Of a stretch of DNA of 64,000 bases, positions 7,204 through 13,127 are shown in pieces. The number at the start of each line of letters is the position of its first letter. Positions within the stretch are counted from its first letter, which is position 1. The translations under genes and the position numbers were made by a program. The stretch is from NCBI RefSeq assembly GCF_000337835.1, contig NZ_AOLM01000027.1:124001-188000 (forward strand). Reading direction: 5' to 3'. The DNA is from Haloferax sulfurifontis ATCC BAA-897 (lineage in GTDB: Archaea > Halobacteriota > Halobacteria > Halobacteriales > Haloferacaceae). The notes beneath the pieces were generated by a model, which did no database searches, had not been told where the DNA came from, and saw only the letters and a program-made list of their open reading frames with translations.

Positions 7204-8628
7204 GTGACAATCTATTTACTCGATACCGACGAACGGTCGAGTGACGTGGAACACACCGGTCGCTGTGCCTACGAGCACGTCTTCGACGCCGCCGACGAGA
7301 CGGGCGCCGACGAGTCGCCGTCGGTGTGGCGGTGTCCGCACCCCGCGAGCGACGGCGCCGACCGCTGTCTGTTCCATCGCCCCGTCGAGGAAACGCGGCC
7401 CGCGGCCGTCACCGAGGCGCTCCGCGAGGCGGTCGAAGACGACGCGCGGCCCTCGGCGTTCGTCGGTGGGGCGTTCGAGCGCATCGACCTCGCGGGGGTA
7501 ACGCCCGCGTCCGACGCGTCGCTGGACCTCCGCGGCGCGATGGTGAAAGCGGACATCGACCTCCGCGACGCGACGCTCGACGGCGCGCTCCGCCTCGACC
7601 GCGTCTCGGTCGGCGGCGCGGTGTGCATGCAACGTCTCGACGCGTCCGAGGCGGTCAGCTGTCGCCACCTGCAGGCCGGCGACCGCTGGGTGCTCTGCGA
7701 GGCGCGCTTCGGCGCGCGCTTCGACGCGACGGGCTTCAGCGCCGAGACGGTCGTGGCGACTGCGGCGCGCTTCGAGGGCGGGGCGACGTTCAGGAAGGGC
7801 GTCGTCGACGACGACGTGTCCGTCGCGGAGGCGTACTTCGGCGGGCCGGCGTGGTTCTCCCACACCCGACTGGACGGCCGCCTCGACCTCGGGAGCGCCA
7901 CGTGCGACCATCGGCTCTCGCTGGCGCACTGTCGCGTCCGCGGGGACGTCGTCGCCGCGGCGGCGACCGTCGACGACGGCCTCTCGCTCGAACACCTGAC
8001 GGTCGACGGCGGCGTCGACGCGACCCGACTCACGGTCGACGGCGGCATCGACGCGACGACCGCCGCCTTCGGCGACCGGGTCGACTGCACGGGACTCACC
8101 GCCCGCGGCGGGACCGTCGACTTCACCCACAGCGCGTTCGACGGCCCGGTCTACTTCGACAACGCGACGGTCGAGGGCCGGGCGCTCCGCTTCCGGAGCG
8201 CGCGGTTCGAGTCGGGGCCGGCGTCGTTCGTCCGCGCGACCGTCGACGGGGGGCTCGACCTCTCCGACGTGGTCTGTTCGGCCGAGTCGCCCGTCCGGTT
8301 GGTCGAAGCCGTCGTCGAAGAAAGCGTCGTCTGCGACCACGCGCGCTTCGGCGACGAGCTGTTCTGTTCGGGAGTCCGCGTCGCCCGCGACGTGGACCTC
8401 TCGGACTGCACCGTCGGAACGCTCACCTTCGGCGTCGAAATCGGCGGGCGGCTGGATTTCGCGTACGCGCACGTGACGGACGCCGCGGCGTTCGGCGACA
8501 CCGTCGTCCACGGTCCCGCTCGGTTCACCAGCGCGCGGTTCGACGCGGACCCGACGCTCACCGAGGCGACCCTCGACGACACGGTCGCGGCCTACGACGT
8601 GACCGTCGAGCGCGCCGGCGGCCCGTGA
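7204..8628 (+). CDS. Pentapeptide-like repeat protein with N-terminal Cys/His cluster
   Basis: 474 residues, GTG start. Residues 19-60 contain a Cys/His set (C19, then WRCPHPASDGADRCLFH) that could bind zinc. From about residue 100 to the end the chain is built of loose repeats of about 20 residues with A/V-x-F/L-x-x patterns (LDLRGAMVKADIDLRDATL, ARFDATGFSAETVVATAARF), as expected for a right-handed quadrilateral beta-helix of the pentapeptide family. No signal peptide or membrane segment is present, so it is cytoplasmic. The role is unknown; such helices often act as protein-interaction surfaces. Confidence 0.7.
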   Translation: MTIYLLDTDERSSDVEHTGRCAYEHVFDAADETGADESPSVWRCPHPASDGADRCLFHRPVEETRPAAVTEALREAVEDDARPSAFVGGAFERIDLAGVTPASDASLDLRGAMVKADIDLRDATLDGALRLDRVSVGGAVCMQRLDASEAVSCRHLQAGDRWVLCEARFGARFDATGFSAETVVATAARFEGGATFRKGVVDDDVSVAEAYFGGPAWFSHTRLDGRLDLGSATCDHRLSLAHCRVRGDVVAAAATVDDGLSLEHLTVDGGVDATRLTVDGGIDATTAAFGDRVDCTGLTARGGTVDFTHSAFDGPVYFDNATVEGRALRFRSARFESGPASFVRATVDGGLDLSDVVCSAESPVRLVEAVVEESVVCDHARFGDELFCSGVRVARDVDLSDCTVGTLTFGVEIGGRLDFAYAHVTDAAAFGDTVVHGPARFTSARFDADPTLTEATLDDTVAAYDVTVERAGGP

Positions 8629-8708: not shown

Positions 8709-9608
8709 ATGTCGAGTGACGGGCAGAACACCCTCATCGCCCTCTACCGACGGTACGTCGACGCCGACCCCGACGAGACGACCGTCTACGCGGGCTTCGC
8801 GCTGTTCTTTACGGCTATCGGACTGCTCGCCGTCGCGCTCGCGGCGGTGGTGTGGAGCGGCGGCATCCCGCCCGAGAACATCTTCAAGTACGAACTCCGC
8901 GAGGTCGCGGGCGTCACCGGCGCGCTCGGGATTCCCCTCCTCCTCGCCTCCGTCGTGGTCCTGCTCCCCTCGCGGTACCGGTTCCCGAAGCTCCTCGCGG
9001 GCGCGGGGCTGGTCGTCTGCGCGGTCGCCGTCGTCCAGTTCGTCGGCGCGTACCCCCACAACTGGAACGTCGCCGCGAGCGCCGACCGGAGCGGCCGCAT
9101 CGTCGGCGTCTACTCGCTCGGCGCGGTGGCGGTCGTCGCCGCGAGCGGCACGTCGCTCGTCGGCTTCCAACTCGCCCGCGCGAGGACGAGCGGGCCCGCC
9201 GCGGGCGGGAACGACGCGGAGTCAGACGCGGCCGACGAGGAAGACGAGGAAGCCGTCGCCGCGCAGGTCCGCCGCGACATGGACGAGGCGCTGTCGGACA
9301 GCGAACTGTCGTGGGGCGGCGTCCGCAAGACCGAGACCACCCGCCTGAAGCTCGATACCTCCGCCGTCGACGACGTCGACCGCGCGAGCTTCGAGAACGC
9401 GAAGGCGACCGAGACGCGCGGCGGGGGCGTCGACGACGCGGTCGCCGGCCTGCAGGGCCTCCGCGGCGGGAAGCAAGACACGGCGGTCGGCGACAGCACG
9501 GACGACCAGACCGCCGCGCTGGCCGAGTTACGGAAGCAACAGCAGGCGGAAGCCGAACGCGAGGACTCCGAGGGACTGGTCGACCGGATTCGCGGACTGT
9601 TCTCCTGA
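8709..9608 (+). CDS. Multi-pass membrane protein with charged helical tail, next to actin homologue
   Basis: 299 residues. Four hydrophobic segments lie at about 27-50, 66-86, 94-113 and 130-155. The cytoplasmic C-terminal half is acidic and contains AALAELRKQQQAEAERED, a probable coiled coil, ending in an amphipathic helix (GLVDRIRGLFS). I believe it belongs to a haloarchaeal DUF7139-type family but cannot verify that. A TATATG box (about 8680) sits 29 bp before the ATG and GAGGT abuts the ATG. It lies 126 bp upstream of the actin-homologue gene on the same strand, so it could be a membrane partner of that polymer (inference). Confidence 0.65.
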   Translation: MSSDGQNTLIALYRRYVDADPDETTVYAGFALFFTAIGLLAVALAAVVWSGGIPPENIFKYELREVAGVTGALGIPLLLASVVVLLPSRYRFPKLLAGAGLVVCAVAVVQFVGAYPHNWNVAASADRSGRIVGVYSLGAVAVVAASGTSLVGFQLARARTSGPAAGGNDAESDAADEEDEEAVAAQVRRDMDEALSDSELSWGGVRKTETTRLKLDTSAVDDVDRASFENAKATETRGGGVDDAVAGLQGLRGGKQDTAVGDSTDDQTAALAELRKQQQAEAEREDSEGLVDRIRGLFS

Positions 9609-9734
9609 GTCGGGTCGGGACGCCGGGCCGTCGGTTGGGAATCGACTCGGCGTCGTTCGGCGTTACATTCATCGACCGAACTGAACGTCAAGAGCGCATA
9701 CAGATTTATGCGACAGCCCTGCGACGCGTGAGGT

Positions 9735-10772
9735 ATGGCGAAAGGCCTTGACGTAGGAACCATGAACATCCTGTCCGCGAGTCAGGATGGGAGTGAGACC
9801 GTATTTGTCCAGCAACGAAACTCGTTCGTCGAAATCGACTACAGCGACATGGCGGAGCAGATGCTCTCGCGGAGCGACGTGCTCCACATCCGCAAGGACG
9901 ACAAAGTGTACGTCGTCGGTGACGACGCGCTCAACTTCGCGAACATCTTCGGCAAGGAGACGCGACGGCCGATGCAACACGGCATCCTCTCCAGCGAGGA
10001 GTCCTCCGCGATTCCGATGATCAAGCTCATCATCGAGCAGGTCGTCGGCTCGCCCTCCCGGCCGAACGAGCGCCTGTTCTATTCGAGTCCCGCCGACCCC
10101 ATCGACTCCGACCTCTCGACGCTGTATCACGACAAGACGCTCGAATCGATGCTCGGCGACATGGGCTACGACCCCGAACCCATCAACGAGGGGATGGCGG
10201 TCATCTACAGCGAACTCGCCGACAACAACTTCACCGGCCTCGGCGTCTCGTTCGGCGCGGGCATGACGAACATCTGTCTGGCGTACTACGCGGTGCCGGT
10301 CATGCAGTTCTCCATCGCCCGCGGCGGCGACTGGATCGACCAGCAGACCGCACAGGCCACCGGCACGGCCGTCGACAAGGTCACGTCCATCAAGGAAGAC
10401 GACTTCCAGCTCGACTTCCGCACGGACGTCGGCGGCGTCGAGGGCGCGCTGTCGATTTACTACGAGAACCTCCTCGACTACGTCATCGAGAACATCGAAC
10501 GCGAGGTCGACGAGGAGGACATCGAGGAGGGCCTCGACGTGCCCGTCGTCGTCACCGGCGGCACCTCCAGCCCCGACGGCTTCGAGGAGCTGTTCGAACA
10601 CCACCTCGAAGACTCGACGATTCCGTTCTCGGTCAACGAGGTCCGGAGCATCGACCGCCCGCTGTACAGCGTCGCCCGCGGGTCGCTCGTCGCCGCCCGC
10701 TCCGAAGAGGAGTCCGACGGGAGCACCTCCGAGCCCGAACCGGAAGCCGAAGCCGCGCCGGAATCGAACTGA
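9735..10772 (+). CDS. volA: Haloarchaeal actin homologue (volactin/salactin type)
   Basis: 345 residues. It has the two-lobed actin/MreB/ParM-like layout: an N-terminal phosphate-1 strand ([12 protein letters not shown]), a second phosphate region around residues 170-185 ([18 protein letters not shown]), and an adenosine-side [12 protein letters not shown] near 275. The last 25 residues are an acidic low-complexity tail. Gene order (CetZ nearby) and sequence features match the volactin/salactin proteins described as dynamic cytoskeletal filaments in Haloferax and Halobacterium. TTTAT near 9705 lies 28 bp before the ATG, and GAGGT abuts the ATG. The symbol follows the Haloferax name and is from memory. 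Confidence 0.8.
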
Positions 10773-10853
10773 GCGCCGACGCTGACTGACGGACCGACCG
10801 GACAGTACGTCACGACCGAGGTCGACGCGCCGCCGGCGACGCGCGAGCGCGCG

Positions 10854-11309
10854 TCACTCGTCGCCCGCGCGGTCCCCGCGGTCGCCGTCCTCCCCGTTTT
10901 TCAGGTGCGAGTCACTGGGCTCGCGGTCGGTGGCTTCGTCGTCGGCCTCGTCGTCACCGGCATCAGCCGCGTCGGTAGTCGTGTCGCTGTCGTCCTCGTC
11001 GCTCTCTGTGTGGTCCTCGTCGTCCTCTGTGCCGACCTCGTTGCGCTCGGATTCGACCTCGGTGTCGCCGTCGGTCGACTCGCCGCCGTCGGCTCCGCCA
11101 GCACCGCCCGCGTTCCCGTCCCGCTCGCGCGCCTCGCGGAGCGCCCGCTCGTGGAAGCGGGCTATCGCGTCGTCCCACGACTCTCGGCTCGGCGCGTCGC
11201 GCTCGTGGACCGTCTCGACGCCGACGAAGCCGCATCGCTCGCAGTAGCGCGCCGCGCGGCCGTCGAACGAAAGCGTCGAGAGGGGCTGTGAACACCGCGG
11301 ACAGGTCAT
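10854..11309 (-). CDS. Zinc-ribbon protein with hyperacidic tail
   Basis: From ATG 11309, 151 residues. Residues 3-26 form a Cys4 zinc ribbon (CPRC at 3-6 and CERC at 23-26). A helical part follows (SWDDAIARFHERALREARERD), then about 75 residues composed almost entirely of Asp, Glu, Ser, Thr and Gly, certainly disordered. The gene is convergent with the actin homologue and divergent from cetZ (122 bp between starts). Function unknown; its position suggests, without proof, a regulatory or adaptor role in the cytoskeletal cluster. A longer upstream start would add an Arg-rich stretch that is not plausible. Confidence 0.7.
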   Translation of the reverse strand: MTCPRCSQPLSTLSFDGRAARYCERCGFVGVETVHERDAPSRESWDDAIARFHERALREARERDGNAGGAGGADGGESTDGDTEVESERNEVGTEDDEDHTESDEDDSDTTTDAADAGDDEADDEATDREPSDSHLKNGEDGDRGDRAGDE

Positions 11310-11431
11310 GGCGTCTGCCGATGGTTCTCGCGGGGGTCGTATAGAACTACCCCGTCGGCGGCGCGTCCGAGTCTGGCTGTGACAGTGTACTAACAGAAGA
11401 TTCACCACTGATGACGTGTCAAAGAGAGACG

Positions 11432-12613
11432 ATGAAGGTCCTCTGCTTCGGCGTGGGGCAAGCGGGTGGAAACGTCCTCGACGCCCTCCTCCGGTACGAA
11501 CAGCGCACGAACGCCGACTACGTCGTCGACGCGGTCGCGTACAACACTGCGTCGGCCGACCTCCGCGGCCTCGACCTCGTTCCCGAGGAGAACCGCATCC
11601 TCTTCGGCGCGGACGAGGTGAGCGGCCACGGCGTCGGCGCGGACAACGAGCTCGCCGCGGAGCTCGCCGAGCGCGACAGCCGACAGCTCCTGCGGGGCAC
11701 CGACGGCGCGCCGACCTCCACGGCCGACGCCTTTCTCATCTTCGCTGGTCTCGGGGGCGGCACGGGGAGCGGCGCGGCCCCCGTGCTCGCAAAGCACCTC
11801 AACCGCGTCTACGAACAGCCCATCTACGGCGTCGGCATCCTCCCCGCCGCCGACGAGGGCGCGCTCTACTCGCGCAACGCCGCGCGGTCGCTCAAGGGGT
11901 TCGTGGACGTGACCGACCACGTGTTCGCGTTCGACAACGGCGCGTGGGCCGAAAGCGGCGAGGACGTCGCGGCGGCCCACGAGTCGATGAACGAGGAACT
12001 CGTGCGCCGCCTCGGCATCCTCTTGGCCTCGGGCGAAGTAGGCGAGTCGGGGTCGGTCGGCGAGAGCGTCGTCGACTCCTCGGAGGTCATCAACACCCTC
12101 CGCGGCGGCGGCATCTCGACTATCGGCTACGCGGCGAGCGAACTCCCCGAGAGCGACGGCGGCGGCGGATTCAGCATCTCGGGACTCTTGGGCGGGGGGT
12201 CGTCGTCGGCGGACGAACTCGACTCCATCAACCGCATCACGACCCAGACGCGGAAGGCGGTGCTCGGACGACTCACGCTCCCGTGCGACGTCGACTCCGC
12301 CTCTCGGGGACTGGTCGTCGTCAGCGGCCCGCCCGAGTGGCTCAACCGGAAGGCCATCGAGCGGAGTCGGACGTGGGTCGAAGAGCAGACCGGGAGCATG
12401 GAGGTCCGCGGCGGCGACTACCCGCTTCCGGAGTCGAACCACGTCGGCGTGCTCGTGCTCCTCGGCGACGTGTCGCGGAGCGACCGCGTGGCCGAGGTTC
12501 GGTCGACCGGCGTCGAGGCCGAGCGGGCTCGCCGCCAACGGGACGCCGACGCCGCCGCCAGCGAAGACAAAACGGAGGCCGTCGTCGACGACCGCCTCGA
12601 TTCCCTGTTCTGA
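11432..12613 (+). CDS. cetZ: CetZ-family tubulin homologue
   Basis: 393 residues from ATG 11432. Tubulin/FtsZ superfamily landmarks: GVGQAGGN at 7-14, the GTP-binding glycine loop GGGTGSGA at 108-115, and a catalytic T7 region after residue 195. CetZ proteins control cell shape and motility in haloarchaea rather than ring division. Here the region around 240-265 holds a Gly/Ser-rich insertion (GGGGFSISGLLGGGSSSADEL). Which paralogue this is cannot be fixed from sequence alone; the neighbourhood suggests the one near the actin homologue in Haloferax (called CetZ3, as I recall). An ATG 21 bp upstream adds only MTCQRET. Confidence 0.88.
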   Translation: MKVLCFGVGQAGGNVLDALLRYEQRTNADYVVDAVAYNTASADLRGLDLVPEENRILFGADEVSGHGVGADNELAAELAERDSRQLLRGTDGAPTSTADAFLIFAGLGGGTGSGAAPVLAKHLNRVYEQPIYGVGILPAADEGALYSRNAARSLKGFVDVTDHVFAFDNGAWAESGEDVAAAHESMNEELVRRLGILLASGEVGESGSVGESVVDSSEVINTLRGGGISTIGYAASELPESDGGGGFSISGLLGGGSSSADELDSINRITTQTRKAVLGRLTLPCDVDSASRGLVVVSGPPEWLNRKAIERSRTWVEEQTGSMEVRGGDYPLPESNHVGVLVLLGDVSRSDRVAEVRSTGVEAERARRQRDADAAASEDKTEAVVDDRLDSLF

Positions 12614-12731
12614 ATCGGCGACACCGGCGGTCCGTCCAGCGTTCTTTCACCGGTCTCGACCGCCGTCCGCGCCCGGTGTGGTCTCGGGTCGGAGAAAGTG
12701 TCAAATACTCCCTCGGCGAACAGTCGGACGC

Positions 12732-13127
12732 GTGTCCGAGATTAGCATAGCGGCGACGCCGCGCATCCTCGCCTACGGTCCGCCACCGGCGGGTCCGATA
12801 GCGACAGAGCGCGACGTGGACGTCGAGTTCGTGAGGTCGAGTCGGGTGTTGTTCGAGCGATTGACCGAGGGGCCGGTGCATCTCGTCGTCTGCCTCCACG
12901 CCCCGCCGGCGTTCGACGGCGTCGAGGCGGTCAAAGGAATCCGCCGGTTCGACGCGACGGTTCCGGTGGTACTGGCGTCGCGGGTCCAAAACACGATGCT
13001 CAATCTACAGGCGATTCAGTCGCAGGTCACATGGAGCGTCGGTCTCGCGGGCGACGTGCCCGTCGAGGAGGCGCTGTCGGAACTCGTCGTCGACGCGAGC
13101 GAGTGGATAGAGCGACAGGTAGAGTAG
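12732..13127 (+). CDS. Degenerate receiver-like protein, 131 aa
   Basis: GTG start at 12732. The segment VHLVVCLHAPPAFDGVEAV followed by VPVVLASRV looks like strands 3 and 4 of a response-regulator receiver, but the phospho-acceptor Asp is replaced (LHAPP) and the N-terminal acidic pair is missing. It is therefore a pseudo-receiver at best. It follows cetZ by 118 bp on the same strand. Role unknown; pseudo-receivers often act as protein-protein modules. Confidence 0.6.
   Translation: MSEISIAATPRILAYGPPPAGPIATERDVDVEFVRSSRVLFERLTEGPVHLVVCLHAPPAFDGVEAVKGIRRFDATVPVVLASRVQNTMLNLQAIQSQVTWSVGLAGDVPVEEALSELVVDASEWIERQVE

Follow-up and report, generated by a model that had tools for sequence, protein, structure and literature searches.

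Which of the genes beside a haloarchaeal actin belong functionally with it? The question is raised by a 64,000-nucleotide stretch of Haloferax sulfurifontis ATCC BAA-897 (contig NZ_AOLM01000027.1, positions 124,001 to 188,000; hereafter the window), in which the actin homologue volactin and a CetZ tubulin homologue are near neighbours. A sequence-only reading had joined both, together with a membrane protein, a zinc-ribbon protein and a pseudo-receiver, into one cooperating module. Gene calling found all five genes at the places given there, and domains were assigned by scoring Pfam and NCBIfam profiles against their curated cut-offs. We found that the membrane protein, here termed DUF7139V, and the zinc-ribbon protein are the neighbours that matter, being co-inherited with volactin across the Halobacteria. 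CetZ and the pseudo-receiver are limited to Haloferax. The three genes at the centre of this study are:

8709-9608, + strand: DUF7139V, a membrane protein with four transmembrane segments, of the volactin-associated DUF7139 subfamily (PF23600, 124 bits; cut-off 30)
9735-10772, + strand: volA, encoding volactin, orthologue of HVO_2015 (PF25216, 450 bits; cut-off 35)
10854-11309, - strand: zinc-ribbon protein, beginning MTCPRC (PF13453, TFIIB-type zinc ribbon, 23.1 bits; cut-off 22, a marginal match)

Co-inheritance was followed in 145 Halobacteria genomes, drawn evenly, with volactin counted over its cut-off and the zinc ribbon by a strong match to its core. Volactin was found in 87 genomes, the tail of DUF7139V in 86 and the zinc ribbon in 84. 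Every genome with DUF7139V or a strong zinc-ribbon match also has volactin; the tail accompanies volactin in 86/87 cases and the ribbon in 84/87. None of the 58 volactin-free genomes holds either, the ribbon matches in G099 and G142 being weak, partial or low-scoring. Genome G060 retains a remnant gene (L221:1166-1624) in which, through one internal deletion, the beginning of DUF7139V runs into the last part of volactin, and its zinc ribbon is gone. Nine genera mix volactin-bearing and volactin-free species, and the three labels agree in all nine (within-genus shuffle probability ~1e-8, a figure inflated by the loss of the linked cluster in one step).

The genes also travel together when they are far apart. 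In genus g2, identified as Halorubrum by comparison with named loci, DUF7139V and the zinc ribbon form a pair (five cases measured, spacing ~0.8-1.2 kb); volA is 79 kb to 1.8 Mb distant from it or on a different contig. All three genes are nevertheless present in 12 Halorubrum species and absent from 3, an outcome with a chance of 1/455. Linkage alone is thus no explanation. Elsewhere, G002 has an unlinked zinc ribbon, and in G021 it lies 25 kb off. Volactin, DUF7139V and the zinc ribbon very probably constitute a module of three genes serving one process.

Synteny was studied in 140 loci collected with iterated profiles, as two sets (60 + 80) overlapping in species, with the genes around volA called by a codon-bias gene caller. 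Unbiased clustering of neighbours in 134 loci placed DUF7139 directly before volA on the same strand in 101, with a median gap of 108 bases between the matched DUF7139 and volactin domains; the zinc ribbon was the commonest family directly after volA. The order DUF7139, volA and an oppositely oriented zinc ribbon was seen in 38 loci. Where the ribbon lies upstream it is divergent in 5 loci and reads in the same direction in 4, and in 1 locus the pair lies downstream of volA. Gene order has been reshuffled repeatedly with the cluster retained. Conservation in other genera, which the sequence-only reading had set as a test for the neighbours, was therefore found in part: the membrane protein and zinc ribbon occur class-wide even when unlinked, whereas CetZ and the pseudo-receiver do not accompany volactin beyond Haloferax.

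Volactin itself is securely identified. The match covers profile positions 1-321 of 321, and the window protein is 82-85% identical to eleven volactins from other genera. It does not reach the NCBIfam cut-offs for salactin, MamK, BeeR, MreBH or FtsA, the best score being MamK at 41.9 against 400. Salactin of Halobacterium salinarum is likewise a dynamically unstable haloarchaeal actin but belongs to another family (the window protein scores 14 bits where 400 are required), and its gene context is reported to be poorly conserved (PMC10746226). With VolA of H. volcanii the window protein shares both family and neighbourhood numbering (HVO_2013 for CetZ5, HVO_2015 for VolA).

The H. volcanii study describes VolA (HVO_2015) as forming dynamic filaments, as needed for timely disk formation and as apparently essential (PMC10869688). 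It also reports that filament tips contact the membrane, for which the authors invoke unknown binding factors, and lists hvo_2013-hvo_2020 as one of three suspected shape-determination regions (Schiller et al. 2024, PMC10869688). Volactin abundance is regulated during the rod-disk transition (PMC10869688, PMC12240190), and VolA and CetZ5 are both up in disk-promoting conditioned medium (PMC12240190). As this region and the HVO_2013 and HVO_2015 data were already in print, the actin-tubulin adjacency is no discovery. The supposed novelty of the linked set must be narrowed accordingly: adjacency and joint rise in disks were known for H. volcanii, but in the published main texts covered we found neither the membrane protein nor the zinc ribbon named as a volactin partner. 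The main text of the VolA study neither names nor tests them as such. In haloarchaea, volactin gives disks their shape and has a part in tissue-like development. DUF7139V and the zinc ribbon are strong candidates for the missing parts that hold and control its filaments. Both are small conserved genes amenable to tagging or deletion in a standard model organism; in H. volcanii they are expected to be HVO_2016 (DUF7139V) and HVO_2014 (zinc ribbon).

DUF7139V has hydrophobic segments near residues 30, 68, 95 and 137. AlphaFold predicts a confident bundle of four transmembrane helices followed by a tail, residues 165-299, that is mostly low-confidence or disordered, with helices at 177-196, 242-253, 265-288 and 290-298. 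The multi-pass membrane protein that had been proposed is thus upheld, whilst its coiled-coil tail is replaced by a mostly disordered one with short helices. Conserved motifs of the tail are DIDEAM..LSWGGV, VDDQ.A.L.ELR.Q and a C-terminal RIRGLF helix, and the W, GG and VDDQ..L.EL region are kept across genera. The subfamily occurs only alongside volactin, and calling it a membrane anchor is a reasonable inference. If it links the membrane to a cytoskeletal polymer, DUF7139V would act similarly to the bacterial couplers MreC/MreD/RodZ, SepF and ZipA, but no significant sequence or structural match to them was found. A hint of FtsA_C at the C-terminus (E 0.21) was discarded.

DUF7139 as a whole is found in 143/145 Halobacteria genomes and in some other members of the phylum. 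The near-universal form is a DUF7139-DUF7140 protein, which in the source genome lies at contig C10:14035-15021 (L180) between genes that we take, from position and locus tags, to be cetZ2 (HVO_0745) and ftsZ1 (HVO_0717). This paralogue is probably HVO_0739, which fits the rough gene count and position, the orientation opposite to both neighbours and the 990-nt length. HVO_0739 may be the division protein CdpA, an identification used as a lead only; the literature gave one passing mention of CdpA. HVO_0739, predicted to be a membrane protein, is transcribed as a monocistronic mRNA of 1,052 nt and is one of only three genes that fall in both transcriptome and proteome on cdrS-ftsZ2 repression, with FtsZ2 and SepF (PMC8406309). 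This joint fall suggests that cytoskeletal polymers have DUF7139 proteins as partners. The HVO_0739 type and DUF7139V share the four-transmembrane DUF7139 module and a long cytoplasmic tail, and HVO_0739 is linked by regulation to the FtsZ polymer system. They differ in that the former is near-universal rather than volactin-dependent, has another tail and ends in the Cys4 domain DUF7140, which is absent from DUF7139V. The tree splits the two branches at 100/100, with one very long branch (L089) unsure.

Other DUF7139 proteins carry other tails. In several haloarchaea (L222-L229) extended DUF1508 repeat arrays are joined to the module, giving proteins of up to ~1,000 residues; the DUF7139 module thus serves as a membrane base for varied cytoplasmic parts. 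Single DUF7139 proteins elsewhere in the phylum (L230-L232) have tails loosely like the volactin-linked one, a similarity short of significance (the best relevant E was 0.08, from a tiny set outside Halobacteria).

The conserved part of the zinc-ribbon protein is only a core of ~55 residues, CPRC..C..CG(F/Y)...ESWDDA..RF, with four Cys, one His and a helix E-S-W-x-x-A-x-x-R-F. The four Cys are invariant among 45 sequences, and the core is predicted with a per-residue confidence (pLDDT) mostly >90. The hyperacidic tail is real in the window protein (38 D/E among 90 residues) but its length ranges from nil, in many Natrialbaceae and Halococcaceae loci where the whole protein has ~53-57 residues, to >150 residues. 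Because evolution can dispense with the tail, the name "acidic adaptor" is not supported. The helix motif is present twice in the Haloplanus and XH8 proteins (L140, L105), as would be expected of a binding motif.

These results are best accommodated, with a probability of roughly 0.6, if DUF7139V anchors volactin filament ends at the membrane and the zinc ribbon is an adaptor or regulator. The cytoplasmic tail of DUF7139V, with its short conserved helical motifs, would receive or organise the filament ends. The zinc ribbon, as a small soluble factor, would bind this tail, volactin or both through its ESWDDA..RF helix, and could bridge them or determine the time or place of filament attachment or turnover. 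In Haloferax, CetZ5 and the phosphorylation-dead receiver were added beside the trio, perhaps coupling it to the tubulin-type cytoskeleton and to signalling, for which the evidence is thin. The data themselves establish gene content, domains, co-inheritance throughout the class, repeated rearrangement without loss of the cluster and co-occurrence of unlinked genes; direct contact, anchoring of tips, an adaptor function and any cooperation with CetZ5 are what we infer.

Several points count against the proposed explanation. For DUF7139V and the zinc ribbon alike, the literature yielded no data on interaction, localisation or deletion, and the co-occurrence profile may also stem from a regulatory or sensory role. 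The best structural match of DUF7139V, to cytochrome b561 at E 0.02, is not significant. In two genomes of Natronococcus type (G130, G132), volactin and DUF7139V persist with no detectable zinc ribbon, which indicates that the ribbon is not always needed. The equation of HVO_0739 with the core DUF7139 protein rests on position, orientation and mRNA size rather than on a direct sequence match.

We consider it rather unlikely that the two proteins instead control the amount of volactin with no contact to filaments, the ribbon as a transcription- or RNA-polymerase-type factor and DUF7139V as a membrane sensor. The TFIIB/RPB9-like ribbon core points that way, as does the regulated abundance of volactin noted above. 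Foldseek matches of the ribbon, none of them significant (best E 0.075), include zinc-ribbon subunits of Pol III and Pol II as well as ZifS, a small zinc-finger protein. However, the protein has no further nucleic-acid-binding domain and in many genera is ~55 residues in all. Its lasting pairing with the membrane protein, which holds even at sites remote from volA, speaks rather for a membrane-bound complex.

The filament-membrane-signalling unit of all five genes would take in the two remaining neighbours:

11432-12613, + strand (alternative ATG at 11411): cetZ5, counterpart of HVO_2013 (CetZ_C, 235 bits, cut-off 21.6; Tubulin, 105 bits, cut-off 33)
~12732-13127, + strand (alternative GTG at 12678): pseudo-receiver protein (Response_reg, 20.9 bits, under the cut-off of 30.2)

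The two polymer genes do lie within 0.7 kb, with ~0.64-0.66 kb from the volactin stop to the CetZ start. Both the tubulin GTPase domain and the CetZ C-terminal domain score over their cut-offs, and the FtsZ equivalog cut-off is not reached (77 against 295). HVO_2013 is CetZ5 (PMC10927574). Relatives at 84-93% identity were found only in the volactin-bearing Haloferax sampled, and the best matches elsewhere are <=57%. CetZ genes near volA in other genera were rejected as CetZ5: that of L107 is nearer another CetZ paralogue (71% against 52%), those of L086 and L092 are ~42% or less identical to either CetZ5 or that paralogue, and the match in L129 is closest to an FtsZ-type sequence of its own genome (L002, 97%). 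A published survey of CetZ neighbourhoods dealt with the CetZ1 and CetZ2 regions (PMC9856176). The pseudo-receiver is rightly so called since Leu replaces the phospho-acceptor Asp, at the position of CheY D57 (MAFFT alignment with a CheY reference sequence). It has a counterpart of 57% identity in one volactin-free Haloferax, and outside the genus weak partial-length matches of ~40% identity or less.

Adjacency in the named Haloferax loci, the joint rise of VolA and CetZ5 in disk conditions (PMC12240190), the shape region flagged in PMC10869688 and the presence of CetZ5 in 4/4 volactin-bearing but 0/2 volactin-free Haloferax genomes sampled all speak for such a unit. Against it, CetZ5 and the pseudo-receiver adjoin volactin only in Haloferax, where they are a local addition. 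Moreover, green fluorescent protein-tagged CetZ5 is diffuse and its deletion had no morphology or motility phenotype (PMC11312570), although longer cells were seen in biofilm (PMC10606840). A five-gene module is hence improbable; what survives of it is the co-inheritance of DUF7139V and the zinc ribbon with volactin. The result shows which of the five neighbours can wait, and ties the membrane candidate to a family already linked to archaeal division.

Passive hitch-hiking of one island through joint gain and loss, which would suit the fusion deletion in G060 and the fact that most losses take all three genes together, is highly improbable given the co-occurrence at a distance (Halorubrum, G002, G021) and the shuffled gene orders.

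A further open frame of ~770-1,340 codons matches the volactin profile in 25/145 genomes, all of which also bear volactin. These giant volactin-related proteins (L094-L097, L202-L220, e.g. L204:687-3983, - strand) are not beside normal volactin. The 23 that were read have an actin-like head, in most a coiled coil of ~300-860 residues, and a C-terminal hydrophobic segment or hairpin. All or nearly all heads have lost the GGT motif and the acidic residue of the volactin NEG motif, and are therefore probably inactive as ATPases. Tethered to the membrane, a pseudo-actin of this kind could serve as a cap or template for volactin filaments. No description of these proteins was found, with no literature search aimed at them.

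A broader proposal, which we hold only tentatively and think somewhat doubtful, is that DUF7139 proteins are general archaeal couplers of polymers to the membrane, one paralogue for the FtsZ ring (the HVO_0739 type) and another for volactin, with many genomes adding a membrane-tethered coiled-coil rod whose dead volactin head could cap or template the ends of volactin filaments. If true, one anchor family would serve both tubulin-type and actin-type cytoskeletons.

The surroundings of the trio add two features:

9609-9734, + strand: 126-nt intergenic gap preceding volA, in which a TATA-like stretch lies ~27 nt ahead of the ATG
7204-8628: a beta-helix-type protein of pentapeptide repeats, encoded upstream of DUF7139V and at this site conserved only in Haloferax

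The gap suggests that volA may possess its own promoter, in which case the genes of the cluster need not share one transcript. Upstream, the PRC-type and 119-residue genes are, like the pentapeptide-repeat gene, essentially Haloferax-only at this site.

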